Notes under the pieces: generated by a model | Told to the model about the DNA's origin: nothing | The model's input: only the letters and a program-made list of their open reading frames with translations | Databases searched by the model: none | Position numbers and translations under genes: made by a program | IMG/VR virus record: IMGVR_UViG_3300034082_000345 | Location: 1 to 29,635 of that record | Direction: 5' to 3' (one strand) | DNA: 29,635 nucleotides | Source: a virus | Shown: one piece after another, positions 5,440 through 29,635 of the stretch | Layout of the letters: each line of letters begins with the position of its first letter | Position numbering within the stretch: the first letter of the stretch is position 1

Positions 5440-5450
5440 CCTATGTTGCA
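5440..5450 (-). promoter_or_regulatory. TGCAACATAGG leader motif before the repeat-protein gene
   Basis: Read on the minus strand the bases are TGCAACATAGG, followed after two bases by the start codon. The same motif, TGCAACATAAG, sits just before the starts of the genes at 25712, 24011 and 21438, and a weaker version precedes 1549. It may act as a translation-initiation or regulator-binding element. Confidence 0.4.
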
Positions 5451-7127: not shown

Positions 7128-7468
7128 TAGATTAGATTTAGTCCTTTAAGTTTACTTTCTGCCCAATCAAGTCCTGTCTTGCCACCCCATAGAAGGAATG
7201 AAACGTATCCACAGTCCTCAGGTGCTGAATCATCAAATGTTGGCTCTGCTCTGCTGAGATATGAGTACATCCGTTTGATGGTATCGACTGAGATTGGTTC
7301 TTTGTTTGCGAGTTGTTGACCTCTAACCTTCCCGACTTGTGTGGCACACTTGTTCCCCAGCTCCTCATTGAGTTCAATACCTCGTCTTGCGTTGTTGCGC
7401 ACTGAATCGGGATAGTCGCTGTATGAGTCCTCAGCAAATGCGTGAAGGTACTTAGATAGCGGTGTCAT
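7127..7468 (-). CDS. conserved pre-terminase protein of unknown function, 113 aa
   Basis: The chosen ATG at 7468 gives 113 residues and a 17-bp overlap with the gene before it; the frame stays open upstream, but that part is the antisense side of coupling and looks like shadow sequence. The protein contains V-R-N-N-A-R-R-G-I-E-L-N-E, then V-R-G-Q-Q-L-A, then T-I-K-R-M-Y-S-Y-L-S-R, then S-F-L-L-W-G-G-K-T-G-L-D-W-A. I recognise this pattern (RA-rich helix, RxxQLA, RM, LWGG..G..WA) from small phage proteins near packaging or head-protease genes, sometimes as a fused domain, but I know no function. The gene ends one base into small terminase, so co-translation is likely. Confidence 0.7.
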   Translation of the reverse strand: MTPLSKYLHAFAEDSYSDYPDSVRNNARRGIELNEELGNKCATQVGKVRGQQLANKEPISVDTIKRMYSYLSRAEPTFDDSAPEDCGYVSFLLWGGKTGLDWAESKLKGLNLI

Positions 7469-7760
7469 TGTTTCTATTCCTTTTGCTTTCTTTCTTAGCG
7501 ACTGCATTGACTGGTCTTTTTCGTTTTGGTTTTGGTTCAACTGCTGGAGCTTCGACTTGCTCATCTGCCTCAATACCTTCATATCTGATAGGCTCAGGCA
7601 CTGTTGCGGTCTCTGCTTCCTTTTCAAACAGGTATCCGAGTCCTATGGTGACATAATATCGGTACTTGCTGACATCTATGTTGTCAACAATGATGGTTTT
7701 GTTTCCGAGCGATGTCCTTTTGATGATGGTCTTGCCCTGAAATTCGGTTTTGATTTTCAT
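7452..7760 (-). CDS. hypothetical protein with basic C-terminal tail, 102 aa
   Basis: The N-terminal half (K-T-I-I-K-R-T-S-L-G-N-K and Y-Y-V-T-I-G-L-G-Y-L-F-E) looks like a small folded domain. The C-terminal third (about 70-102) is very rich in Lys, Arg, Pro and Ala and could bind nucleic acid. I recall similar small proteins just before terminase genes of Bacteroidota phages but no assigned role. The start overlaps the sigma-like gene by 77 bp, an unusually long overlap. Since both frames look coding, I keep this start rather than a shorter one. Confidence 0.65.
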   Translation of the reverse strand: MKIKTEFQGKTIIKRTSLGNKTIIVDNIDVSKYRYYVTIGLGYLFEKEAETATVPEPIRYEGIEADEQVEAPAVEPKPKRKRPVNAVAKKESKRNRNNDTAI

Positions 7761-8274
7761 TGTATATGATTTTTAGGTTGTTTTTTATCTCTGCAATTAG
7801 GTAGTGAGCTGATGTCGGTGGGATATCAAAGTACTTCGCCATTGATCGTGCTGTTGTATATCCATCATCGAAGTAAGCCTTCGCCACTGTTATCTTCACA
7901 TTGTCGGTGAGTGAATCTCGGTATATGTCCACGCATGACTTCCATCCATGGTATTCCTTCTCGATATTTATCTTATCAATAAGGTCAGTATCATCAACCA
8001 TCACATCAGGAACAGCTGTTTCATTTGCTGCCATGCGCTCCTGACGATTGGTGTCCAGGTTCTGCCACATCACTTGTCGCTTGATTGAGTTCATCATTAG
8101 TCCTTTGACATCAGGGTCGGGTCCTGCGTCCTGTATTGATGTGCAGTGAAGATATGCGTTGTTGATGACAACATCGGGATTGATGCGTGGATTGTACTTG
8201 GAGCAAAAAAACCGAGCGTATCGAAATAGCTCGGCATAGTGCCTGGTGATATATCGGTCAAGAGATGCTTTCAT
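7684..8274 (-). CDS. putative sigma-like transcription factor, 196 aa
   Basis: Residues 1-75 (R-Y-I-T-R-H-Y-A-E-L-F-R-Y-A-R and D-V-V-I-N-N-A-Y-L-H-C, then L-M-M-N-S-I-K-R-Q-V-M-W) resemble region 2 of ECF-type sigma factors. Residues about 125-170 (V-A-K-A-Y-F-D-D-G-Y-T-T-A-R-S-M-A-K-Y-F-D-I-P) look like a region 4 helix-turn-helix. The last 25 residues overlap the following gene and read like an unselected tail. Placed at the boundary between replication and packaging genes, it could direct RNA polymerase to late promoters. A plain helix-turn-helix DNA-binding protein is the alternative. Confidence 0.5.
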   Translation of the reverse strand: MKASLDRYITRHYAELFRYARFFCSKYNPRINPDVVINNAYLHCTSIQDAGPDPDVKGLMMNSIKRQVMWQNLDTNRQERMAANETAVPDVMVDDTDLIDKINIEKEYHGWKSCVDIYRDSLTDNVKITVAKAYFDDGYTTARSMAKYFDIPPTSAHYLIAEIKNNLKIIYNENQNRISGQDHHQKDIARKQNHHC

Positions 8275-8470
8275 ACCAATTAATGAAGTCCTTGTACCAT
8301 ATTTTTCGCCTCACCATGGAGCAGAAACATTCTCGGTCTGACTTTGCCTGGACTCGCTCCTTGATTTTCTTGAGTGGGAGCAGTGCTTTCTTGCTGAAGC
8401 GGTGCGCATCATCCATCGCAATCACTGTTGCGATATATTCGATGTCAGTATTTGTCAGTCCTGTGTCCAT
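8258..8470 (-). CDS. hypothetical protein, 70 aa
   Basis: I chose the ATG at 8470 because translation from there gives a compact helical, basic protein and overlaps the upstream membrane-protein gene by 16 bp; the frame is open to 8566, but that part lies inside the upstream gene. The sequence includes two cysteines in E-C-F-C and ends W-Y-K-D-F-I-N-W-Y-E. It overlaps the sigma-like gene by 17 bp and so is probably translated with it. No family is recognised. A partner of the sigma-like protein would fit the coupling, but this is a guess. Confidence 0.55.
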   Translation of the reverse strand: MDTGLTNTDIEYIATVIAMDDAHRFSKKALLPLKKIKERVQAKSDRECFCSMVRRKIWYKDFINWYESIS

Positions 8471-8694
8471 TGAGTTATTAAATAAGCCACCATTGAGACG
8501 AGTGCGGCATATACTATGTTGCCTGTGAGTATCAAAGTGGTCCAAAATGAGGTACATTTCCAGCACTCGAATGATGCGTGAACAAACTGCATGAATTTAC
8601 CCTCAAATCTCATAAAGATATAATCAATCAGCCAGTGAAGAGGTTCGAATTTAGCGATGAGCCATCCGATTGCGAGTCCTGTGATTAGTTCCAT
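8455..8694 (-). CDS. small membrane protein with C-x2-C motif, 79 aa
   Basis: Hydrophobic segments lie at about residues 2-30 and 52-74. Between them is C-W-K-C-T-S-F-W, which resembles the cysteine motif of DUF1360-type membrane proteins. It overlaps the preceding 38-residue membrane-protein gene by 10 bp and the following gene by 16 bp. The role is unknown; superinfection exclusion or modification of the host envelope are possibilities without direct support. It is not part of the recognisable lysis cassette, which is elsewhere. Confidence 0.6.
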   Translation of the reverse strand: MELITGLAIGWLIAKFEPLHWLIDYIFMRFEGKFMQFVHASFECWKCTSFWTTLILTGNIVYAALVSMVAYLITQWTQD

Positions 8695-8801
8695 AGATCA
8701 AAGATAAAAGAAATAATCAGAATAATACTAACAACTGACATCAGTATCATTGTGCCAATAGCAGCCATTTCTTCTCTGCGGTCGTCTTTGTTTAGTTTCA
8801 T
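8685..8801 (-). CDS. single-span membrane micro-protein, 38 aa
   Basis: This short frame has a charged N-terminus (K-L-N-K-D-D-R-R-E-E) followed by one hydrophobic span (about 13-35) ending F-I-F-D-L-W-N. The start lies after an A-rich AACAACAAGAACA leader like those of other genes here, and the end overlaps the next gene by 10 bp. The clean split into charged head and membrane span, with coupling to another membrane protein, supports a real gene despite its size. Confidence 0.55.
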   Translation of the reverse strand: MKLNKDDRREEMAAIGTMILMSVVSIILIISFIFDLWN

Positions 8802-8849
8802 TGTTCTTGTTGTTTAGTTTACATTTCTTGTTTACTTATGTGGCAATTT

Positions 8850-9065
8850 TTACCACTTATCCTTGCTTGCATTGACATCTGCCTTCAGCTTCTCAATGTA
8901 TAGCGTGGCATCCATCAGTTCCTCCTGGAGATGGTTCAGCCAATCAATGAAGCTGAGGTCATCACGATCAAGAGTGCGCCCATATTTCTCGATGCCTCTC
9001 TCGCTGCGCTCATAATACTTGGCAAGTACCTTGAGAAGTATTGGGTCTTTGATTTGCTGCTCCAT
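8850..9065 (-). CDS. MazG-like small protein, 71 aa
   Basis: The segment R-G-I-E-K-Y-G-R-T-L-D-R-D-D-L-S followed by D-W-L-N-H-L-Q-E-E-L-M-D-A (about 24-52) resembles the short MazG-like (all-alpha NTP pyrophosphohydrolase) proteins of phages, where the E-E-L-x-D-A helix supplies metal ligands. At 71 residues it has only the core helices. It may hydrolyse a nucleotide to adjust the host pool or alarmones. The start shares one base with the upstream stop. Family membership is moderately likely; the activity is inferred. Confidence 0.6.
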   Translation of the reverse strand: MEQQIKDPILLKVLAKYYERSERGIEKYGRTLDRDDLSFIDWLNHLQEELMDATLYIEKLKADVNASKDKW

Positions 9066-9253
9066 CAGTTCAAACTTGCATATTGTGCAAAGAACTCATC
9101 AGCACTCACCTCAGATATGTGTACCTCATCTGATACAGTCAGCACAATACAACTACTTATGTTAGGCATCATCTCAAAAAGGTCGTGGACTCTTGCAACC
9201 AACTTGTCGAGGTTGTCATTTTGTGTACCAATGTAGGCGATAAAGTACTTCAT
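9065..9253 (-). CDS. hypothetical protein, 62 aa
   Basis: This 62-residue acidic protein begins K-Y-F-I-A-Y-I-G-T-Q-N-D-N and has an alternating strand-helix-strand look. It has no motif that I recognise. Its 4-bp overlap with the HTH gene upstream and 1-bp junction with the MazG-like gene downstream show it belongs to the same translationally coupled series. Confidence 0.6.
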   Translation of the reverse strand: MKYFIAYIGTQNDNLDKLVARVHDLFEMMPNISSCIVLTVSDEVHISEVSADEFFAQYASLN

Positions 9254-13814: not shown

Positions 13815-14018
13815 TTTTCGTGACGCTAATGTACAAAAAATTGCTGATTTGTGACGATTCGTGACGATGTGTGAATTGTATCGTCACGCTTGTATCCTTT
13901 ACTGGTATTGAGTTTCAGCAAAAGCGTGACGATGTGACGATAAAAAAACTAAAAATTTTAAAATAAAAATAAGGGTCTTAATAGGTTCGGTATATAAAGA
14001 GATGTGTCATATCGTCAC
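13815..14018. other. candidate phage replication origin (repeat cluster plus A/T-rich run)
   Basis: This is the largest gap in the genome. It holds seven GTGACG(A) copies and an extreme A/T run (13939-13973) of the kind that melts easily, between genes for a DnaA-domain-IV-like protein and a primase-helicase. The arrangement is that of a replicator: protein-binding repeats, an unwinding element and adjacent initiator genes. The repeats may instead be operators for an early repressor. Confidence 0.5.
13820..14018. repeat. GTGACGA repeat cluster (iterons or operators)
   Basis: Forward copies start at 13820 (GTGACG), 13851, 13861, 13926 and 13934; reverse copies (TCGTCAC) lie at 13881-13887 and 14012-14018. 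Two forward pairs are spaced 10 and 8 bp. CGTGACGAT (13860-13868) and ATCGTCACG (13880-13888) form a perfect 9-bp inverted repeat with an 11-bp spacer. The last copy lies inside the end of the DnaA-like gene. Confidence 0.75.
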
Positions 14019-14396
14019 AAGTCTCTCATCATACACCCCCCTCTTGATTCTACTCTTAATGATTTTCAAGGTAGCGTATGACTGACATTTCAGAATATCG
14101 GTGATAAGGTCCCTCGCTGATTCCCTGTCAACATGGTCCAACAAGAATTGATATTCTGCAATGCACTCCAGGTATAGCTTGTCATTGGTGCTGGTCATCC
14201 ATTCATGTGTGCGAAGGCTGTGCAGCACTGTTGCGTGGTCACGTTTGAACATTTCGCCAATATCCTTGAGGGTCATCCCTGTTGATCGCAGCTCATGCAT
14301 CAGAAATGCTCTGCGATACACCAGCTCATGAGTGCGGTCCTTGGCAGATAGCCTATCTCGTTTGATGAGTTCTTGTATTTTGTCGAATTGGTTCAT
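14007..14396 (-). CDS. stand-alone DnaA-domain-IV-like protein, 129 aa
   Basis: Residues about 22-62 match the DNA-binding domain of DnaA: V-Y-R-R-A-F-L-M-H-E-L-R, then M-T-L-K-D-I-G-E-M-F, then the signature R-D-H-A-T-V-L-H-S (52-60). No AAA+ domain is present; the remaining residues form two helical segments. It couples to the methyltransferase gene by 4 bp. Its end runs into the GTGACGA-rich gap, suggesting that it binds those repeats and starts phage replication together with the primase-helicase. It could instead compete with host DnaA for its boxes. Domain recognition is firm; the binding site is inferred. Confidence 0.8.
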   Translation of the reverse strand: MNQFDKIQELIKRDRLSAKDRTHELVYRRAFLMHELRSTGMTLKDIGEMFKRDHATVLHSLRTHEWMTSTNDKLYLECIAEYQFLLDHVDRESARDLITDILKCQSYATLKIIKSRIKRGVYDERLVTI

Positions 14397-21096: not shown

Positions 21097-21438
21097 TTAG
21101 TCGTAAATTGATGAAATTGATGCGCCACTGACAACCATTCTACCCTCCTCAATGACCACTCCTGTGGTGTCACTGATTTCGGTTGGTGGTATGGTTGATT
21201 CGTACACGCTGTATGAGTATTGTCCCTTCATTAGTTCCACATCGATTGGTTCATCCAAGTAAAAGAGATTGAATCTCTCAGGATATGGTGAGTCATCGGT
21301 GTTGGTGAACAAGATTGGGTCGGATGTTGGGTTCATTTTGTTTTGGAATACGAACAAATAATACGGTGAAGGCAGCGTTGACACTTCCGACAGTGTCAGC
21401 ACTATGCTGTTGACCTCACCTTTGTTGATGTATATCAT
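21097..21438 (-). CDS. small beta-rich structural protein, 113 aa
   Basis: This 113-residue acidic, beta-rich protein starts M-I-Y-I-N-K-G-E-V-N and ends V-V-S-G-A-S-I-S-S-I-Y-D. I recall similar small proteins between capsid and portal genes of Bacteroidota phages, without an established role; a head decoration or collar part is likely. The start is preceded by the TGCAACATAAG leader with an identical 16-bp extension to the one before 25712, suggesting shared control. Confidence 0.65.
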   Translation of the reverse strand: MIYINKGEVNSIVLTLSEVSTLPSPYYLFVFQNKMNPTSDPILFTNTDDSPYPERFNLFYLDEPIDVELMKGQYSYSVYESTIPPTEISDTTGVVIEEGRMVVSGASISSIYD

Positions 21439-21440
21439 TA

Positions 21441-21456
21441 CTTATGTTGCAATTAG
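21441..21456 (-). promoter_or_regulatory. CTAATTGCAACATAAG leader, copy before the 113-aa gene
   Basis: The 16 bases are identical to those at 25715-25730, and both end two bases before an ATG (at 21438 and 25712). An exact 16-bp copy in such a place suggests a selected signal rather than chance. Confidence 0.55.
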
Positions 21457-21525: not shown

Positions 21526-22044
21526 TTAGATTACTGCAAGAACAGCGGCTTCCTCAATCTCATATGATAGTTGGTCCATTTCCGCTAACAATGTAACGGA
21601 GTATTTAGAACCATCTGCACGAGTTGTGCCTGAACCCTCACCGACTGCGCTCAATTGAAGGAATGGGAAGTACCAGTACTTACCGTTCATATCCTTGACA
21701 ATTGCATTCAAGTATTGTTGACCCGCACCAAGTATCTTAATTGCTTGAGATTTGTCTTGGTCTCTTCGGTGGAACAATAGGTTGATTGTCGCAGTTACAT
21801 AAGATGAACCATTCACAAGGTCAATTGCTGCATCTTCAGTGTATGAACCTGTGTTTCTGCGTATTTCAAAAGCAGTGTAATCAGGCGCACCACCACTGAG
21901 TGTGATTGCATCAATTGTGTATGTGTTGGTTGCATCGAGTGTAAAAGTGTCGATGTTGTCTTGCTGATTAATCCAAATTTTTTCAATGCCACCACTATTG
22001 TTGTCGCACGATTTGACGATTGTTTCTAATGCTTCACAAGCCAT
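21526..22044 (-). CDS. probable major tail tube protein, 172 aa
   Basis: This 172-residue beta-rich protein has L-L-F-H-R-R-D-Q-D-K-S, then I-V-K-D-M-N-G-K-Y-W-Y and the closing block D-G-S-K-Y-S-V-T-L-L-A-E. The last part resembles tail tube subunits of small siphophages, which close a beta-barrel with similar strands. It lies between two strong terminators, as expected for a protein needed in high copy. A capsid decoration protein is the main alternative, given its place next to the capsid gene. Confidence 0.55.
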   Translation of the reverse strand: MACEALETIVKSCDNNSGGIEKIWINQQDNIDTFTLDATNTYTIDAITLSGGAPDYTAFEIRRNTGSYTEDAAIDLVNGSSYVTATINLLFHRRDQDKSQAIKILGAGQQYLNAIVKDMNGKYWYFPFLQLSAVGEGSGTTRADGSKYSVTLLAEMDQLSYEIEEAAVLAVI

Positions 22045-22065: not shown

Positions 22066-22095
22066 AAAAAAAAGAGGGGAGTATTTCATCCCCTC
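22066..22095 (-). terminator. hairpin terminator after the major capsid gene
   Basis: On the minus strand GAGGGGA pairs with TCCCCTC around an 8-base loop and is followed by eight T. It lies 8 bp after the major capsid stop. Confidence 0.85.
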
Positions 22096-22102
22096 GGAGA
22101 TA

Positions 22103-23023
22103 CTATGAATAAAGAACGATTTCAGCACCGTTAACGTGGTGGAAACCAACTTTCATATTTGCACGAGTACGGATATAAGGCTCAGCAACAGTGTCAGAAA
22201 GGTTCACAGCTCTTAACGCTTTTGAATCTCCTTCAGCATCGAAGCAATATAAAAGATTGTCCTTCAACGTCAATACAGCAGTGTTGTCTGGCATACCTTC
22301 ACAAACAACAACATTCACACCAAGATATGTCAAGTTGAGTGGAGTTGTTACATATGTCAAAGTGTTACCTTGAGCAGCAGCCAATTCGTATGCGTTAGCC
22401 ACGTTGGTAGAAACATACAAGCGAAGGTCAGATTTTCTGCGGATGATTGCAGATGGAGCAGCTGCGAAGATAAGAGCAAGTTGAGCCAATACGTTTCCGC
22501 TGTTTACAGTTGTGTTTGCAACATCAACAACAGTTGCATCAGCAAGTAAACCTTTGATATAACCATCACAAAGAGCAAGGGTAGTATTTTCAGATTCAGT
22601 GTCACCTTGCCAACGGATAAGCTCGATGTCTTGACCGATTTGCTTAGCCATTGTGTTCCAATAGAAGTCCATGAATGAAGCAACAGTGAAGTCACCATTT
22701 GAACCTTTTGTCATTTGCAAAGCAACGAATGATTGCTCAAGGTCAAATTGACAAATTTGAGCCATAGCTGAAAGCGCACATACGTCAATCTCAACTGCGC
22801 TCAAGTCATCAGTTGGAGCGTCAAAAGGACAAGTTGATGATTGGAGAATGTTGCCGAATAATACGGTAGCTAATTTGGTTTTTGACTTAATACCTGGCAA
22901 AAGGCGGTAGTTGTCAGCGATGTTCTCTTCAGACAAATATGCTTTTGAGAAAAACGCTTCAGGATTGGCTGCCAATAAAGCTGAAGCATCTACATCCAAA
23001 TCGAATTTTAAATTTTTAGACAT
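22103..23023 (-). CDS. major capsid protein, 306 aa
   Basis: The protein has an N-terminal helical stretch (about 10-45), a central A-S-F-M-D-F-Y-W-N-T-M-A-K-Q and a C-terminal beta part ending G-F-H-H-V-N-G-A-E-I-V-L-Y-S. This fits an HK97-fold capsid protein as seen in small Bacteroidota siphophages. It has even codon use, a strong terminator right after the stop and an A-rich leader, as expected of the most abundant protein. The protease/scaffold gene precedes it by 13 bp. Capsid identity is inferred from gene order and pattern rather than an active-site motif. Confidence 0.85.
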   Translation of the reverse strand: MSKNLKFDLDVDASALLAANPEAFFSKAYLSEENIADNYRLLPGIKSKTKLATVLFGNILQSSTCPFDAPTDDLSAVEIDVCALSAMAQICQFDLEQSFVALQMTKGSNGDFTVASFMDFYWNTMAKQIGQDIELIRWQGDTESENTTLALCDGYIKGLLADATVVDVANTTVNSGNVLAQLALIFAAAPSAIIRRKSDLRLYVSTNVANAYELAAAQGNTLTYVTTPLNLTYLGVNVVVCEGMPDNTAVLTLKDNLLYCFDAEGDSKALRAVNLSDTVAEPYIRTRANMKVGFHHVNGAEIVLYS

Positions 23024-23036
23024 TGTTATTTGGTTT

Positions 23037-24011
23037 TTATTGATTTACAAATTGATTAAACTTCGCAAATTTTTCACTCATTGAGAGTTGGGTCATTTGC
23101 GTTTCGACCTCTTCATCATTGTTCTCTGCATATATCTCCTCGATTTGGTTGCGGAGGTCTGCGATCATAGAAATGATTGCTTTCTCTCTCTCTTCCAACA
23201 TCGGCAAAACAATTGCAGCGATTGCTTCCGCATCGGTAGCTGGGTCGATAGCCATAGCCTCATCAGTGGTGGTTGACTCTTCAGTTGTCTCTTCAACTGT
23301 TGTGTCTTCCATCGCCACCTCTTCGGTTGACATCTCTTCCTCAACCACTTCCTCGGTTGGTTCTTTTTCCACCTCTTTAATCTCAACAACTTCACCGTCT
23401 TTTACGACATAGATTTTGTCTTCGATTTGGTGTTCTCCATCAGGTAACATCATGTTATTTAATTTAATTTGTTCCGATAATTTAAGACCGAGAAAGCCTT
23501 CAATGGAGAAACCGACTTGATCGTTGGCAACCAATTCGGCAAAGTAGTCAGCATCGGTCACCTGTGCGGTCACCATGAGTGTACCCTTTGGTACTTCAAT
23601 GCCAAATGTTGAGTACGCTTTGTCCTTGGTTGGGTTGTCAACAATCCATGTCTCAAGGATGTAGGCTGGTACTTTTTTCTCGGTGTCGTGTTCCAAGTTG
23701 AAGATGTCACGATTGCGCAAATCAGCCATGAACTTGGTGTGAATTTGCTCGATGACTTCCAAAGTGAACTGCACATAATACTCACCATCTTCAGAATCTC
23801 TGCGATATATGTCCATCGGTATCATCGCTGGAGCTGTGATGCGATACTTTACATCATCAGCAAACATCAATCTCTTGTCGCTTCCAAAACTAACCCCCTT
23901 AACCTTAACAGCGGGGAGATTTGTGAAAGCTATCATTTCAATCCCGAGGTTTTCTCCATCGGAGTACTCCTCATCGATTGTGATTTTGTAGATAGGCAAG
24001 TCTTTTGTCAT
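23037..24011 (-). CDS. XkdF-like prohead protease with C-terminal scaffold region, 324 aa
   Basis: Residues about 60-180 match the XkdF-like serine protease family: L-E-H-D-T (His108), A-Y-I-L-E-T-W-I-V, F-G-I-E-V-P-K-G-T and V-G-F-S-I-E-G (Ser169). These would cut scaffold and capsid proteins during head maturation. Residues 210-255 are almost all Glu, Thr and Val, followed by a helical coiled-coil (about 265-324). Such a tail is typical of a built-in scaffold that is removed by the protease. It adjoins the major capsid gene, so both act in head assembly. Confidence 0.85.
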   Translation of the reverse strand: MTKDLPIYKITIDEEYSDGENLGIEMIAFTNLPAVKVKGVSFGSDKRLMFADDVKYRITAPAMIPMDIYRRDSEDGEYYVQFTLEVIEQIHTKFMADLRNRDIFNLEHDTEKKVPAYILETWIVDNPTKDKAYSTFGIEVPKGTLMVTAQVTDADYFAELVANDQVGFSIEGFLGLKLSEQIKLNNMMLPDGEHQIEDKIYVVKDGEVVEIKEVEKEPTEEVVEEEMSTEEVAMEDTTVEETTEESTTTDEAMAIDPATDAEAIAAIVLPMLEEREKAIISMIADLRNQIEEIYAENNDEEVETQMTQLSMSEKFAKFNQFVNQ

Positions 24012-24039
24012 TGCTTATGTTGCATTTTTTGTATATTTG
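24011..24039 (+). promoter_or_regulatory. probable promoter for the plus-strand gene pair
   Basis: TTG (24011-24013) precedes TATATTTG (24032-24039) by 18 bases; TATATTTG is an exact match to the Bacteroidota -7 box TAnnTTTG. The gap between the divergent starts is only 42 bp, so transcription would begin about ten bases before the ATG at 24054. Confidence 0.6.
24014..24024 (-). promoter_or_regulatory. TGCAACATAAG leader before the protease gene
   Basis: On the minus strand these 11 bases match the leaders before the genes at 25712 and 21438 and end two bases before the ATG at 24011. Confidence 0.5.
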
Positions 24040-24053
24040 TTCAAAAAATAGTT

Positions 24054-24602
24054 ATGATATCAATCTTTGACAGGGAGATTCCCAACAAAATGGATGAGCT
24101 GACCATTGAGCAGTTCGAAAAAATTAGTCAAATTCTTAACAACCAGGAGTATGACAACATTGAAAAGTATGTTGAGATGTTCAAATACCTTGGCATCGAG
24201 GAGAAGCTATGGGATGACTACCCATTCAGCGAGTTCATTGAGTTAGTTAAGACCTTTAATATTGACTCATACACCCCACAGGAGCCTGTGACATCCATTG
24301 AATTGGAAGGATATACCTACACAGCGGAGATGCGCTTGTCAGTTAAGGAGACCAAGCTGATTGAGAAGATTGTGAACGGTAAGCCGAACAACTATATCAG
24401 TGACATCCTTGCAATCATGTTCAAACGCACTGACCTTGGCAACACTGAACACTTCGCAGATGCACATTTGAAACTCAAGGCAAAGATGTTCAGAACTCAA
24501 AAGGCTGGATTGTGCGTACCATACATTGTGTTCGTCACTGAAAAGATTGCAGAGTATGCAAAAGCCAACGCTCCCGAAGGGATGGCATCAAGTCAATCTT
24601 GA
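24054..24602 (+). CDS. probable tail-assembly chaperone, 182 aa (plus strand)
   Basis: I chose the ATG at 24054 because it follows the promoter-like sequence; the frame is open upstream to 23688, but that part opposes the protease gene. The protein is helical and acidic, beginning I-F-D-R-E-I-P-N-K-M-D-E-L-T-I-E-Q-F. An M-(D/N)-E-L-T-(I/L)-x-x-F segment recurs in the protein encoded next, which overlaps by 47 bp in the +1 frame. A pair of overlapping helical proteins beside the tape measure is the usual tail-chaperone pattern, which in many phages uses programmed frameshifting. The opposite strand is odd. The role is inferred from place and overlap. Confidence 0.6.
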   Translation: MISIFDREIPNKMDELTIEQFEKISQILNNQEYDNIEKYVEMFKYLGIEEKLWDDYPFSEFIELVKTFNIDSYTPQEPVTSIELEGYTYTAEMRLSVKETKLIEKIVNGKPNNYISDILAIMFKRTDLGNTEHFADAHLKLKAKMFRTQKAGLCVPYIVFVTEKIAEYAKANAPEGMASSQS

Positions 24603-25293
24603 GCAGTTCATTGAGTTAAGGTCTTTGCAACCCGATGATGGGTTGTTCAACCACAACATTGATATTCTCTGCACACTCACTGACTCATATCCTGAGGACT
24701 ATGATGATGCTGAACTGCATGAAGTGTCGGAGTGGTTTAAAGATTTGCAGTGGCTGTATTCTGAACCAAACAAGAACCATGTCGGGCAGATTGGCAAATT
24801 CCAAATCAAGCCAATGAATGAGTTGACGCTGGGTGAGTTCATCGACCTTGAGTACTATTTCACCCAGGACTACATCAAGAATCTTCCAAACATTTGCGCA
24901 CTGTTGTATCGCATTCCTGAAGTCATCGAGGATGATGTGGTGGCAAAGTGGGAGACAGCCAACTTCAAAGTATCAGCGAGAGCGCACTACTTCCTGGAGC
25001 AACCAATCACCAAGACATATGGCATACTCACTGAGTATATCAAATTTAGGGACCAATTTATCTCATCACATTCCAACCTAATGACTGAAGATGTGGAAGA
25101 TGACCTCACTGATATCGATGACCCTGAAGAGCGCAAAGAAGCAGAGAAGCAAAAGGCATCCAACAAATGGGGATGGGAGCAATTAATATGGTCGATGTGC
25201 AATGGTGACCTGACCAAGTATGACCAAGTCATAAATATGAAGCTGATACTTGTGTTCAACTTCCTTGCAATGCGTAAAGAATTAGATATTTAG
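24556..25293 (+). CDS. probable second tail-assembly chaperone, 246 aa (plus strand)
   Basis: The ATG at 24556 gives 246 residues; a further ATG at 24526 is possible. Two copies of a Leu-rich motif occur: V-N-L-E-Q-F-I-E-L-R-S-L near the start and M-N-E-L-T-L-G-E-F-I-D-L-E near residue 86. They resemble the motif near the start of the first chaperone, so the two proteins may have arisen by duplication. The protein is acidic, especially at D-V-E-D-D-L-T-D-I-D-D. It is made either by separate initiation or by a +1/-2 frameshift inside the 47-bp overlap. The stop overlaps the end of the minus-strand gene at 25290 by 3-4 bp, so the two units converge. Confidence 0.6.
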   Translation: MQKPTLPKGWHQVNLEQFIELRSLQPDDGLFNHNIDILCTLTDSYPEDYDDAELHEVSEWFKDLQWLYSEPNKNHVGQIGKFQIKPMNELTLGEFIDLEYYFTQDYIKNLPNICALLYRIPEVIEDDVVAKWETANFKVSARAHYFLEQPITKTYGILTEYIKFRDQFISSHSNLMTEDVEDDLTDIDDPEERKEAEKQKASNKWGWEQLIWSMCNGDLTKYDQVINMKLILVFNFLAMRKELDI

Positions 25294-25712
25294 TAATCGA
25301 GAGAGTAATTGAACTCACCGAATAGCGGCACAAAGTCGTATATCACCTTCGGCTTTTTTCTTAATAGGTTACCGAGTTCCAAGATTGGGAACTTTTGCGC
25401 CAAGTCTGCGACATACATACCATACATCTCGGCAATAAGTCCATTCATCTCGAGTGCATCATTGAATTTCTTGACCAATCTGAAGGGTGCGATGGTGGCT
25501 GTACCGTTGTTGAGATATCCAAAATAATAAGCAGCAAGAATCTCGATTCGGAGGTTGCCTTCAGTGGTCACCTTGGCATTGATTTTGACTGAATCATACA
25601 AGGTGTATGTGTCAATCAGTGCTTCATCCTTAATAACTTTCTTGAGTGTGTTGGCAACTCGTCTCCTGACTGGATACTTGTAATTGAACTCGCCTGTGTT
25701 TTTGTATGCCAT
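25290..25712 (-). CDS. HK97-gp10-like tail-completion candidate, 140 aa
   Basis: This 140-residue protein starts A-Y-K-N-T-G-E-F-N and has R-R-R-V-A-N-T-L-K-K-V, then L-Y-D-S-V-K-I and A-A-Y-Y-F-G-Y-L-N-N-G-T-A. The Y-F-x-Y-L-N-x-G-T pattern after a D-S-(I/V) segment recalls HK97 gp10-like neck proteins, which join head and tail. The start is two bases after a TGCAACATAAG leader that includes the stop of the preceding gene. The end overlaps the plus-strand chaperone by a few bases. Assigned from pattern and place. Confidence 0.55.
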   Translation of the reverse strand: MAYKNTGEFNYKYPVRRRVANTLKKVIKDEALIDTYTLYDSVKINAKVTTEGNLRIEILAAYYFGYLNNGTATIAPFRLVKKFNDALEMNGLIAEMYGMYVADLAQKFPILELGNLLRKKPKVIYDFVPLFGEFNYSLDY

Positions 25713-25714
25713 TT

Positions 25715-25730
25715 CTTATGTTGCAATTAG
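25715..25730 (-). promoter_or_regulatory. CTAATTGCAACATAAG leader, copy before the gp10-like gene
   Basis: These bases are identical to 21441-21456. The element includes the TAA stop of the 149-residue gene, so it acts within a polycistronic message, if it acts, rather than as a promoter at a gap. Confidence 0.5.
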
Positions 25731-26176
25731 TCAACAATTTGTTTAGGAATCTGACAATCGGTCCATGAATCCATGGTGAATGTGATGTTCATCAACCACC
25801 CAGCAGCATAGTCGAGGAGATCATTGTTGAGAGGAATCAAGGAAGGGAATCCAACCACATCGAAATCACGATCATCAAGGCTGAAGGTGTAGTTCAGATA
25901 CAAGTCCATGAGTATCTGATGGCAGTCGCTGAGAATTACATTGATGTTTGCCCTATCTTTTTGGATGATATCAAAGCAATAGATTTCAAGAGTGAAGTCA
26001 TTGGTGTTATCGGTAGGGATTGCATCCACAGGCACGATGTACACAATCGGATACTTCTCATCCTTGGTGGCAAAGTTGAACAACTGCTCTTTAAAGTCAG
26101 AACCTACTTTCTTGACTTGAAGATGTGCATCATAGAATCCTATGATTTCATTTATGAGTGCTTGGTAACTTATCAC
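25727..26176 (-). CDS. tail-terminator-like candidate, 149 aa
   Basis: This 149-residue acidic protein contains Y-P-I-V-Y-I-V-P-V-D-A-I, then F-T-L-E-I-Y-C-F-D and a helix Q-I-L-M-D-L-Y-L-N. The alternation of strands and helices is what tail-terminator or head-closure proteins show, and several such genes lie next to the tape measure in Bacteroidota phages. It overlaps the tape-measure stop by 4 bp and ends at the leader of the gp10-like gene. No specific motif is decisive. Confidence 0.55.
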   Translation of the reverse strand: MISYQALINEIIGFYDAHLQVKKVGSDFKEQLFNFATKDEKYPIVYIVPVDAIPTDNTNDFTLEIYCFDIIQKDRANINVILSDCHQILMDLYLNYTFSLDDRDFDVVGFPSLIPLNNDLLDYAAGWLMNITFTMDSWTDCQIPKQIVD

Positions 26177-28221
26177 AGTACTGAATTTTGAATGATTTTG
26201 CTGACCTTGTTTTGAACCCCTGTCATCTCGGTCTCACTGACCACAGCCTGAACTGTGATAGTTTGGTTGGTCTCAACCCCTTGAGATTGGCTCACGTTGT
26301 TGGCTGCGTTCCCTTGACCGAATAGGTTGCCAGGTACGAATGATGGAACGGATGAAGATGGTGATGAGGATTCATTACCTCCTCCTCCAGTTCCGTTGGG
26401 TGAAGGTGTAGATGTTGGATTTGTGAGCAGTGCTTTTGCCTTTGCGATGTTAGTGACAATCTGAACAATCCCAGCTGCATACTGTGCAACTCCCGCTGCT
26501 CCTCCTGTCACCGAGTTGAGTGGGTTGGCACTTGACATTGCAACCAATGAAGATATCGCCTTCGCTGTATCGATACCGATTTGAATCAGTGCCTGAGCCT
26601 TGTTGAATTTTTCAAGTTTCTTTTGGTCCTTGATGAATGCCTCACCTATCGCACCAAGCCCTTGAGCAACTGATGATGCAATCTCAATCTTTGCATCTCG
26701 AATTGCCTTTTCGTTATTGATTGTCTCAAGTGCTTTTTGTTTTATCTCAGCTTTTTCCTGGTCATCAAATTTCTTGTTAATTTCGGCAAGTTCTTTTCTT
26801 TGATTGTCTTGCAAGATTTTTGCATCCGCACCATATCGATTGGCTTCAGCAATTAAGTTGTCATAGTAGTATGTGCGCTCTTGAATTTCTTTTTGACGAG
26901 CGTTTAGACCAGCTTGATAAATTGCTTCTTGGATTGCTTCCTCACGATCAAGTTCAGCATTTTGAAAGTCAACTAATTTTTGAGACAATGCTTGTTGACG
27001 AGCAAGTTCAACATCAGCAGCCGCTTTGTTTATTGCATCTATTTCAAGATTTTTGGCAGCCTCAAGACCAGTGATATCTTTTTTGTATTTTTTAGCCTCA
27101 GTGATAAGAGCATCATACTTTGTTTTGACATCATCTATTTCACGTTGTTGTTGCGTCTTGGTTGAATCAAGAACCAGCTTATTTGCCGCATTGATTTCAG
27201 CCTGAATAGCCTTGAGACCATCTTGATACTTTTTGGCTGCCTCCTCATTTTTTGCCTTGGCTTCCTCTTTTGCTTGTTTGTCAGCAGCAGCTTGGTCAGC
27301 AGCTTCCTGGATTGCCATGAGTTTGCGTTCCTTGGAACCATCCTTGATTATTTTATTCTCCTCCTCGATACGTTTGCGCAGTGATTTTCTGCGCTCTATG
27401 GAATCCTTATCAGTCAATCCTTTCAATTCGGAATACTCTTTTCGAGCATCTCCCAATCGTTTACTTGCTGCTTTGCTGATGGCTGTTGATTTGTCCATCT
27501 CCAGCTTGGTGGTATCTTTACCCGCAGCTTTCGCTTTGGCAATCTCAATATCGTATTGGTCAGATATTGCTTCAGTTCTTTTCTCTGATGAATTGAATGC
27601 CTTTTCATTGGCTTTCTCCATTGTTCTCGCATTCTCTTCAGCAGCATATGATGTCAAGCCCAACCAATCGGTCAACTCCTTGAATCCATCAATGAGTGCA
27701 TTGATAGGTATCATCAATACATCAAGCACCTTTTGAAGTACACCAATTTTATTTAGGAACACACCTATCGCCACCACAATTGCAGTGACCACAGCAACCA
27801 ACAAAAAGATTGGATTTGCGAGGATTTGCATTCCGAGTTTAACGAATGCACCACCCATCGTTGTGATGGTTGATGTCAAACCTTTCATGCTCTTGCTGAT
27901 ATCCTGTGCATTCAACCCACCAAGATTCTTGGCAAATACTTTCGCTTTATCTGATGCCTCTTCAAAATCAAGTGACATGATTGAATCACGAATACCACCA
28001 AATGAATTGGATATCTGCTCAAATTTTGAACCTGATGCAAAGACATTGACAGCATCGTTGGCATCTTTAATCCTATCAGCAACCTGACCAGCTTGGGCAG
28101 CGAGTGCCGCCATTTGTTCAGGGTCGGATGCTTCAGCAATTGCTGCCTTGAGGGATCGGAGTTCTGCCTTGAGTGATTGAACCCCCGATAGCTTGAGTGG
28201 TATTTCGACTTCGTTACTCAT
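26173..28221 (-). CDS. tape measure protein, 682 aa
   Basis: This sets tail length. The N-terminus has long helical coiled-coil segments (about 10-60 and 200-500, rich in Lys, Glu and Ala). A hydrophobic stretch lies at about 134-156 (N-P-I-F-L-L-V-A-V-V-T-A), and a second, Ala/Gly-rich one at about 550-610, as typical for proteins that enter the host membrane during ejection. The C-terminus ends M-T-G-V-Q-N-K-V-S-K-I-I-Q, the closing pattern of Bacteroidota tape measures. At 682 residues, a tail of about 100 nm is expected from the usual 1.5 angstrom per residue. It overlaps the junction-spanning gene by 8 bp and the 149-residue gene by 4 bp. Confidence 0.85.
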   Translation of the reverse strand: MSNEVEIPLKLSGVQSLKAELRSLKAAIAEASDPEQMAALAAQAGQVADRIKDANDAVNVFASGSKFEQISNSFGGIRDSIMSLDFEEASDKAKVFAKNLGGLNAQDISKSMKGLTSTITTMGGAFVKLGMQILANPIFLLVAVVTAIVVAIGVFLNKIGVLQKVLDVLMIPINALIDGFKELTDWLGLTSYAAEENARTMEKANEKAFNSSEKRTEAISDQYDIEIAKAKAAGKDTTKLEMDKSTAISKAASKRLGDARKEYSELKGLTDKDSIERRKSLRKRIEEENKIIKDGSKERKLMAIQEAADQAAADKQAKEEAKAKNEEAAKKYQDGLKAIQAEINAANKLVLDSTKTQQQREIDDVKTKYDALITEAKKYKKDITGLEAAKNLEIDAINKAAADVELARQQALSQKLVDFQNAELDREEAIQEAIYQAGLNARQKEIQERTYYYDNLIAEANRYGADAKILQDNQRKELAEINKKFDDQEKAEIKQKALETINNEKAIRDAKIEIASSVAQGLGAIGEAFIKDQKKLEKFNKAQALIQIGIDTAKAISSLVAMSSANPLNSVTGGAAGVAQYAAGIVQIVTNIAKAKALLTNPTSTPSPNGTGGGGNESSSPSSSVPSFVPGNLFGQGNAANNVSQSQGVETNQTITVQAVVSETEMTGVQNKVSKIIQNSVL

Positions 28222-29635
28222 ATGTACGAACTTCTAATGATGAATATTTTAAACTGCCATCTTGGTGTTGATGGTTTTGAGTGTTGGTTGTTCTGACATA
28301 TATTGTACCGTCTGACTTTATTTCAGCGGTAGCAAGGTGGTCATGTTCTACGTTGCCAATTATCACAAAAGTGTTCAGAGTATTAAGTGGATTCGGTGCA
28401 GTACCGATATACTCACCTTGCGCTGTGCGAGTCCATATAACACCACCAATCGTATCAGACAACACAATGGCTGTTGGTGCTGCTGTTCCAACTTGAGACA
28501 AGAGCGCAGTGTATCCACCCGATGCTGTGGTAACTCCATTGATTTTCGGTGTGATGAGTCCATCCTCGGTGAGAATCTTATTGTCTCCGATGACCAATCC
28601 CTTGAGTCCTTGACCGATGATGTTGCCCTCACCTTTCACGATCACATCATCCCCTGAGAGATTGCCATTGGCAGTGGTTGACTTTGTCTGAAGGATGGTG
28701 TCAACTGATACTGCTGTGGTGGTTGCTGATGTCGGTGTTCCTGGTGCAGTTATGAATGGAGGTAGTTCAATCTCAGTGTCGATGCTGATGAGTTCAACCT
28801 TGGTCGCTGTTTCTGCGTTGGCATTGTAGTCGATAATTCGGTTGATGTTCCACCATGAGTTGTCGATGCGTACCTTTTGATTTAGCTCAAGTGTTTGAAT
28901 GTCAGCCTCGTTGAGATTAAAGTAAGCAACCAACATCTTGCCTGTGTTGATTTGGTTCACTGTTCTCCTCCAATACAAATTGTACAGGTTGTTTGCTGTT
29001 AATGTTTGGGGTGAATAATAGTAGAAGTCATTCGTGCCAAACATGATGTCAAATGTCGGAAGGAGTGGGTCATCAAAGTGACCAAGTACAGGATACTTCT
29101 CGATGCCAAATTCACCTGTCGTGCCATACTCAATCAAATCCCATGAACCACAAGTCTTGAATCCTCCATCGTAAAGGATGCGAATGTTGGTCTTGGGTGC
29201 ATCACCGTTTAGTGCGGGGACATAAGCATCGAATGTTGTGGCAACCACAGGGGTTGGTGAGAACAATAGTTCTTTGGTCTCCGTTCCTTTGACATATTCG
29301 TTGTCAAATGTGTACTCGAGTTGACCATATATCTCATCAGTCATTTGTGTGTACACCTCATTCGGTGAATCCTTGTCTGCTTTGTATGTGAGGGTCAGTT
29401 TCTTTGAGGTGATGTCAGGCAAGAATATCAAGTCTTGCTCTCTCTCCTTCATGAGCTTATATGTCCAATCTACCTCTTGACCTGAATCATAGTACTCATC
29501 CCTGTGCTTGAGGATGAGCTTGTTTGGTTGGTCCACATCGATGTCAACATATAAATTGTACATGGTGAAGATAGACTTGACAAAGTCGGATTGCTTAATC
29601 TTGAGCGGCACATATTGGTTGATGTCCAGGATACC
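28214..29635 (-). CDS. large tail-tip/fibre-like protein, 3' part (gene continues from 1549 across the contig ends)
   Basis: This is the C-terminal part of the 947-residue protein begun at 1549 (bases 29509-29635 repeat 1-127 and count once). An ATG at 29611 is internal and not the real start. The region from residue about 483 to 800 is beta-rich, with L-K-H-R-D-E-Y-Y-D-S-G-Q and V-R-I-D-N-S-W-W-N-I-N-R. The end has short repetitive segments such as T-A-S-G-G-Y-T-A-L and N-T-Q-N-H-Q-H-Q-D, common in phage fibres. It ends 8 bp inside the tape-measure gene. Total length is 947 residues (2,844 bp including the stop). Confidence 0.85.
   Translation of the reverse strand, partial: GILDINQYVPLKIKQSDFVKSIFTMYNLYVDIDVDQPNKLILKHRDEYYDSGQEVDWTYKLMKEREQDLIFLPDITSKKLTLTYKADKDSPNEVYTQMTDEIYGQLEYTFDNEYVKGTETKELLFSPTPVVATTFDAYVPALNGDAPKTNIRILYDGGFKTCGSWDLIEYGTTGEFGIEKYPVLGHFDDPLLPTFDIMFGTNDFYYYSPQTLTANNLYNLYWRRTVNQINTGKMLVAYFNLNEADIQTLELNQKVRIDNSWWNINRIIDYNANAETATKVELISIDTEIELPPFITAPGTPTSATTTAVSVDTILQTKSTTANGNLSGDDVIVKGEGNIIGQGLKGLVIGDNKILTEDGLITPKINGVTTASGGYTALLSQVGTAAPTAIVLSDTIGGVIWTRTAQGEYIGTAPNPLNTLNTFVIIGNVEHDHLATAEIKSDGTIYVRTTNTQNHQHQDGSLKYSSLEVRTYE
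29509..29635. repeat. right copy of 127-bp terminal direct repeat
   Basis: This is identical to 1-127 and continues the same reading frame. It should be trimmed when the genome is circularised. Confidence 0.95.

Follow-up and report, generated by a model that had tools for sequence, protein, structure and literature searches.

Two opposite-strand genes in an uncultured phage group probably encode tail assembly chaperones resembling gpG and gpGT

The inverted gene pair and its neighbours

Our study examined a stretch of virus DNA of 29,635 nt (hereafter the window), corresponding to positions 1–29,635 of the IMG/VR record IMGVR_UViG_3300034082_000345. The window carries an exact 127-bp terminal repeat (1–127 = 29509–29635), and the genome (~29.5 kb, circularly closed) is therefore probably complete; one gene spans the junction of its ends. 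Two overlapping genes, here termed G1 and G2, are read from the plus strand within a late region that is otherwise read from the minus strand (Table 1). A preliminary description of this DNA had named them as the only plus-strand genes, and they are indeed the sole convincing ones. A codon score trained on eight minus-strand genes of the window favoured the plus strand in 16 of 245 bins, ten of which form one contiguous run at 24001–25320, the only such run found, with the other six isolated and of small margin. One further plus-strand ORF (8931–9236, 101 aa) lies near an isolated plus-favouring bin and overlaps small minus-strand ORFs, and another (1004–1510) is antisense to a long minus-strand ORF. 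The geometry first described for the pair also holds, namely a divergent region of 42 bp, which the protease gene closes at 24011 and G1 at 24054, and a head-on junction at which G2 and a completion gene overlap by a few bases, here four.

Table 1. Features of the G1–G2 locus and of the adjoining genes (positions in the window)
Feature	Position	Strand	Description and basis
Probable major tail (tube) protein, presumed T-domain partner	21526..22044	-	phrog_19091, E=0.0012; function inferred
Probable major capsid protein	22103..23023	-	phrog_1623 virion structural protein, E=1.1e-21; P12024S gp02, E=3e-7, aligned
Head maturation protease (Peptidase_S78_2), divergent neighbour	23037..24011	-	PF14550, E=2.6e-8; P12024S homologue
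Divergent gap, protease start to G1 start	24012..24053	.	42 bp; sequence
TGCAACATAAG element by protease start codon	24014..24024	-	exact copies also at 21441-21451 and 25715-25725
Predicted -7 promoter box TATATTTG	24032..24039	+	exact TAnnTTTG; conservation
G1	24054..24602	+	182 aa; probable gpG-like tail assembly chaperone with the G domain alone
G1/G2 overlap	24556..24602	+	47 nt; likely G2 ATG at 24556, inside G1
G2	24556..25293	+	245 aa; probable tail assembly chaperone resembling frameshift product gpGT, single frame
G2 part matching -1 frame extension and T domain	25033..25293 (boundary approximate)	+	EYIKFRDQF ... KWGWEQLIWSMCNGDLTKYD ... FNFLAMRKEL; alignment
Tail-to-tail overlap, G2 and completion gene	25290..25293	.	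4 nt, common TTAG; sequence
HK97-gp10-like tail completion protein (tentative)	25290..25712	-	140 aa; PF04883, E=0.006, under its cut-off; phrog_5, E=0.12
g149	25727..26176	-	149 aa; homologue of gene directly downstream of P12024-like chaperone; hhalign 96%, E=4.7e-9
Probable tape measure protein	26173..28221	-	682 aa; inferred from length and composition

The family assigned to the probable tail tube protein, phrog_19091, is also that of gp03 of the isolate Nonlabens phage P12024S. The tentative completion protein gave a weak profile match to the gp10-like gene of P12024-like phages (hhalign, P=0.009), and the 682-aa probable tape measure protein had a weak match to the unnamed family phrog_5807 (E=0.035) and no Pfam match. 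The pair thus adjoins a gp10-like gene and lies two genes from a probable tape measure gene, a placement within the tail module. The capsid and protease of the window weakly match those of P12024S, and portal and terminase genes were also found. Away from this region and beside a methyltransferase gene, a small minus-strand gene (14007–14396) has a product in which PF08299, the C-terminal DNA-binding domain of DnaA, was recognized (E=5.9e-11).

Relationship of G1 and G2 to a frameshift-type chaperone gene

The capsid and protease matches to P12024S led to gp38 and gp39 of that phage, two unannotated overlapping genes directly downstream of its terminase gene (NC_018271, in which they are entered as hypothetical). 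A scan with gp38 recovered 63 IMG/VR loci, hereafter P12024-like. The G frame crosses a run of nine or ten T followed by A (T9-A run) in all 63 sequences examined, namely 62 of these loci and P12024S, a single locus (L267) having been dropped as a cut-off sequence. A second, overlapping ORF matching the GT profile was present in 64 of 65 loci (the 63 plus L274 and L276), always in the -1 frame; L242 was the one locus where none was found. The KWGW-type motif lies in this -1 frame. At one point the P12024-like chaperones of 212–248 aa were taken for in-frame fusions, a reading rejected when all frames were read and T fell in the -1 frame. Positions 23136–23830 of P12024S and the loci L205–L266 thus form an unannotated -1 frameshift candidate, with the -1 ORF in 62 of 63. 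Together these features give the P12024-like chaperone gene a G/GT architecture, in which actual frameshifting is inferred.

The P12024-like locus is otherwise similar to that of the window, with g149-like and gp10-like neighbours, homologous protease, capsid, portal and terminase genes, and, as in the window, a G domain and a KWGW-type T domain. Unlike the window, it has a single chaperone gene, which contains the T9-A run, carries T in the -1 frame and is codirectional with the terminase gene; a second chaperone gene was not found in P12024-like loci. The terminase large subunit gene lies upstream on the strand of the chaperone in 53 of 63 loci. It was on the opposite strand in none of the 63 and was not found in the remaining ten, five of which are cut short. 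In all 16 loci whose gene order was compared, the single chaperone gene is followed by same-strand genes of 149–157 and 154–179 aa. The first of these, on the plus strand in 53 of 62 loci, is homologous to g149, and the second is gp10-like. Loci were oriented by their match, so that the plus strand of the G ORF is in most P12024-like loci a matter of construction, whereas the strand of the neighbours is not. The same neighbours are retained, and only the strand of the chaperone relative to them differs between the window group and the P12024-like loci.

The identity of G2 was examined against a virtual GT family, made by joining in a script the G part of P12024-like loci to their -1 frame; this reference family was itself recognized by its frameshift-like architecture and not by annotation. 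Members more than 90–95% identical were dropped from the profiles. G2 aligned with the virtual GT family over 222 columns (hhalign, E=9.4e-20) and, with more members, over 225 columns (E=7.1e-25), compared with 148 columns for the G frame alone (E=5.3e-9). When the GT-family profile was run on the window, one ORF was found at E<=0.05, and this was G2 (E=1.3e-18). Early profiles built from few sequences had given P values of 0.022 (G1–G2), 0.007 (G2–gp38), 0.25 (G1–gp38) and 0.08 (G2–gp39), and an early comparison of the A3 profile with P12024S gave E=4e-4; a clear result required more diverse families and inclusion of the -1 frame. The predicted model of G2 (pLDDT 83.2) had 37 Foldseek matches in BFVD at E<=0.001. 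I6R9M9 of P12024S, a protein of 175 aa, the length of gp38, was matched at E=2.2e-6, and Flavobacterium phage 6H gave a weak fold match.

By profile comparison, G1 is a shorter paralogue of G2. The two families aligned over 172 columns (hhalign, E=3.5e-7), and G1 aligned with the 0-frame G family of P12024-like phages over the N-terminal 85 columns only (E=1.7e-6), while eight control pairs in the same comparison ranged from 0.027 to 0.65. A0A6J7X091, a viral protein that is 79% identical to G1, was among the fold matches of the G2 model (TMt 0.68, E=1.9e-4). The predicted model of G1 itself (pLDDT 53.6) is too poor to use alone, although by eye helices and strands follow one another in it much as they do in G2. 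A PDB profile search gave G1 a single match below 0.01, to a juvenile hormone methyltransferase (E=0.003), which was judged to be chance. The G1 and G2 products, of 182 and 245 aa, share an N-terminal domain, the longer one bearing a T-like extension.

The term probable chaperones used in the preliminary description is thus backed for both genes by profile comparison and synteny, and for G2 also by fold. A comparison of predicted structure with known chaperones, suggested at the same time, bore this out in part: the G2 fold matches the P12024S protein, and annotated chaperones were matched only weakly (E=0.14 and worse). Neither gene had a significant PHROG or Pfam match or a PDB profile match to a chaperone, the PDB fold search (G2 only) returned none, and neither matched the lambda or TP901-1 chaperones directly in sequence or solved structure; the P12024S protein likewise matches only an unnamed PHROG. 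This lack of a PHROG or Pfam name, together with a weak GerE match of G1 (Pfam E=0.03, below cut-off), is what would speak for early regulators or other non-tail proteins, which we regard as extremely improbable because G2 matches the virtual GT product over its full length and because of the G2 fold and the synteny.

Conservation of the arrangement and signals in the divergent gap

IMG/VR was scanned with G1, with G2 and with their alignments. Three of the scans each returned their best 80 loci, and the group is therefore larger than counted here. Merging of identical sequences (identity being the only criterion) left 123 distinct G1–G2 sequences, the window included, with identity down to 51% (G1) and 41% (G2); one contig may underlie several loci, and the loci numbered L203–L347 stand outside these counts. 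With loci oriented like the window, the order was protease (minus), G1 (plus), G2 (plus) and completion gene (minus) wherever these were present. The pair was opposed to the strand of the late operon in 122 of 123 sequences, the exception being L181, which has one neighbour match (g149) on the plus strand. The divergent gap measured 42–46 bp in all 123, and 42–66 bp in more distant loci, excluding two 81-bp rows with a misplaced start. G2 and the completion gene overlapped by 4 nt in 120 of 123 sequences and by 12 nt in L183; they were 242 bp apart in L181, the junction having yielded a value in 122 of the 123.

A scan anchored on the P12024S capsid gene returned its best 80 loci, many on contigs already counted and some more distant. 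Among these, G1 and the protease gene ran in opposite directions in 52 of 52 loci; for G2 the count was 51 of 52, with the P12024-like locus L274 as the exception. No codirectional two-gene intermediate was found among the loci scanned. A scan of genome contigs found no relative of G2. With tblastn against named phages, no isolate was found for the G1 and G2 of the window or for those of L335, each search pair giving a single match judged to be chance (E=4 and E=1, respectively). One record of 38,240 bp (IMGVR_UViG_3300020043_004889; L033 and L050) holds the G1–G2 locus twice, in non-identical copies about one genome length apart, and is possibly a concatemer or a misjoin.

The reading frames of the pair bear on whether a frameshift persists in another form, with ribosomes passing from G1 to G2 within their overlap and making a G1–G2 fusion. 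The overlap was 47 nt in 107 of 123 sequences and 41, 32 or 71 nt in the other 16, for which it was mostly taken from the alignment start, with no ATG found nearby. These lengths differ by multiples of three, so that the frame relation of the two genes is the same in 123 of 123, and in 15 of 123 there was no ATG at the aligned G2 start or within 10 codons upstream (for example L075); both observations would suit a fusion. Initiation at an ATG, as at 24556, is for the same reason not universal. However, an ATG does open G2 in 108 of 123, a fusion would carry two G domains, and no in-frame slippery heptamer is present in G1 or G2 of the window. Among relatives, no in-frame slippery heptamer recurs in more than 16 of 134 (G1) or 5 of 100 (G2) distinct sequences. 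In L335 (about 7226–8817, minus strand) an extra ORF of ~120 codons lies between G1 and G2 and overlaps both, so that a direct shift from one to the other cannot work there. Taken together, a G1–G2 fusion appears highly improbable. GT lies in one frame in G2, and with no in-frame slippery heptamer in the window G1 and G2 were not assigned to the frameshift subtype of G/GT chaperone genes.

The divergent gap contains an exact Bacteroidota -7 box, as first described, in the form of TATATTTG (TAnnTTTG). A single match of this kind is weak, as the window holds 28 copies of TAnnTTTG where chance alone predicts 21; it is conservation that lends weight to the promoter. TAnnTTTG stands 12–17 nt before the G1 ATG in 76 of 80 distinct upstream sequences, compared with 1.9 of 80 on average after base shuffling, although the 80 are related sequences and not independent. 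Two of the four misses (L318 and L340) are a matter of start-codon choice and carry the box, and the L289 and L333 type have TATATTCG. In the near group the box takes the forms TATATTTG, TATCTTTG, TAAATTTG and TATTTTTG, in which positions 3–4 are never G, in agreement with the refined Flavobacterium johnsoniae consensus TAHHTTTG given in the available text of PMC6847099. The box spans -12 to -5 relative to the transcription start in excerpts of PMC9723704 and PMC6847099, which predicts a start at 24044 and a leader of ~10 nt. By eye, no -33 element (TTTG) occupies a fixed place upstream of G1; this element is described as much less evident than the -7 box (PMC6847099, available text). G1 and G2 thus apparently have their own predicted flavobacterial-type promoter. 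A sigma-70 scan of the window found 21 sites against 21.0 in shuffles.

On the other side of the gap, TGCAACATAAG sits 2–3 bases before the start codons of the minus-strand genes that begin at 21438, 24011 and 25712, with a variant at 5440–5450, and may serve as a late start signal. From one relative to another its three copies tend to vary together, TGCAATATAAG and TTAATATATA being two of the forms that they take. In 55 distinct triples the best 10-mer agreement was 9.67 within a genome and 8.35 between genomes, with none of 300 permutations as high, and three control genes gave 7.62; these permutations ignore kinship, and the concerted change therefore rests on perhaps few clade-level events. 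The copies behave as if read by a co-evolving factor, and Pfam found no phage sigma factor for them in 10 small proteins of the window.

AACAAA lies upstream of TGCAACATAAG, and in the divergent gap it is the complement of TTTGTT in the -7 box, so that the two start signals seem to overlap there. The conserved TAnnTTTGTTCA could accordingly be read as the upstream half of the minus-strand protease start signal (complement TGAACAAA), with G1 and G2 transcribed by other means. AACAAA on the minus strand, ~10 nt upstream of the protease TGCAACATAAG, also precedes the TGCAACATAAG copies at 25712 and 21438, where no plus-strand gene starts, as such a reading would expect. Yet the TA of the box is absent from the window at 25712 and 21438, distant loci keep TAnnTTTG and lose TTCA, and the exclusion of G from positions 3–4 in the near group follows the F. 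johnsoniae pattern (PMC6847099, available text). A plus-strand -7 box and a minus-strand start signal may also simply overlap. We therefore consider it quite improbable that the conserved bases serve the protease gene alone, and retain the predicted promoter of G1 and G2.

No terminator-like hairpin was listed at 23361–27494, the convergent junction included, in a scan that was weak overall (9 sites against 8.2 expected), and overlapping converging transcripts are plausible on this account. The different timing or antisense control of neighbours raised in the preliminary description would be one possible consequence of such opposed transcription. A hairpin and T run follow the capsid gene (22074–22095, minus strand), and another was seen by eye in the leader before 21438. 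Hairpins and T runs of this kind point to a late region divided into several transcription units.

Evolution of the pair and its meaning

We consider it likely, from these sequence and model comparisons, that G1 and G2 are siphophage-like tail assembly chaperones in the roles of gpG and gpGT, encoded by two opposite-strand genes in place of one frameshifted gene. The full-length alignment of G2 with the virtual GT product, and the relation of G1 to it as a shorter paralogue, suggest that two genes took the place of the usual frameshift in this group. In the available text on lambda and TP901-1 (PMC5009743, PMC4493119), as in the inferred roles of G1 and G2, a short G and a longer GT share an N-terminal domain and both are needed. 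There GT arises by -1 frameshifting, whereas the window has two genes, no slippery site and the opposite strand. In lambda, according to passages of PMC5009743, gpG attaches to the tape measure protein, and tail tube subunits are recruited by a few gpGT molecules by way of their T domain; the G:GT ratio of ~30:1 is crucial.

By analogy, G1 as gpG would keep the tape measure protein soluble and extended, while the N-terminal G domain of G2 would join the G1–tape measure complex and its C-terminal T domain would bring in tail tube subunits. Both genes would be translated from a single mRNA with a short leader and a 5' end near 24044. The G:GT ratio would be set by how strongly G1 is translated compared with G2, which has its start within G1, or by a factor unseen here. 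A TP901-1 mutant with only fused GT made normal-looking but non-infectious particles (PMC4493119, available text), which would explain, by analogy, why a separate G gene was retained.

The present state would have come about through a duplication (or the acquisition of another copy), together with a local inversion and the disappearance of the slippery site, if the frameshift state is ancestral and the relatives really frameshift. A tree placed G1, G2 and the single chaperones in three separate groups, so that the split of G1 and G2 is older than the radiation of the window group. The tree had no outgroup and therefore does not give the order of events; G1 could come from another phage.

The chaperone identity may be right and the flip nevertheless a neutral relic of an old inversion, with no special timing and a promoter that merely rescued expression. 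To this we assign a little less than an even chance. The cluster of chaperone, g149 homologue and gp10-like gene is intact and only the strand of the chaperone has changed, a state that one or two local inversions would produce, and no terminator signal was listed around the inverted pair. Against a relic stands an arrangement that is near-constant to the base over wide divergence, although tight packing alone would suffice for this. A relic would in any case be compatible with the two-gene G/GT reading. A bolder proposal is that duplication replaced the frameshift throughout a lineage of small uncultured phages and that the inverted, separately promoted unit controls the G:GT ratio. Its promoter would have bases in common with the start signal of the divergent head operon and its transcripts would run into the late mRNA, so that strand choice and antisense transcription would tune tail assembly in place of ribosome slippage; this we hold to be unlikely.

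The G/GT frameshift is described as widely kept in long-tailed phages, with a fixed ratio of the two proteins as its presumed purpose (PMC5009743, available text). Two chaperone genes without an annotated frameshift were noted in 342 SEA-PHAGES genomes, for which the authors presume a joined frameshift gene (PMC10885494, available text). Those cases differ from the window group, which has two full paralogues with GT in one frame. Phage RcZahn is mentioned in an excerpt of PMC8601537 as having chaperone genes without clear frameshift signals. In the open-access literature searched, no report of a two-gene inverted G/GT arrangement was found.

The interest of the locus lies in the apparent shift from one frameshifted gene to two across an uncultured phage group, and not in the strand alone. 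Annotators who look for a slippery site next to the tape measure gene would overlook chaperones of this kind. If the inverted promoter matters, the pair would be a case of strand choice timing tail assembly. The two-gene lineage would also offer a natural test of whether it is the slippage as such or just the protein ratio that counts, with two proteins that can be made and tested singly.
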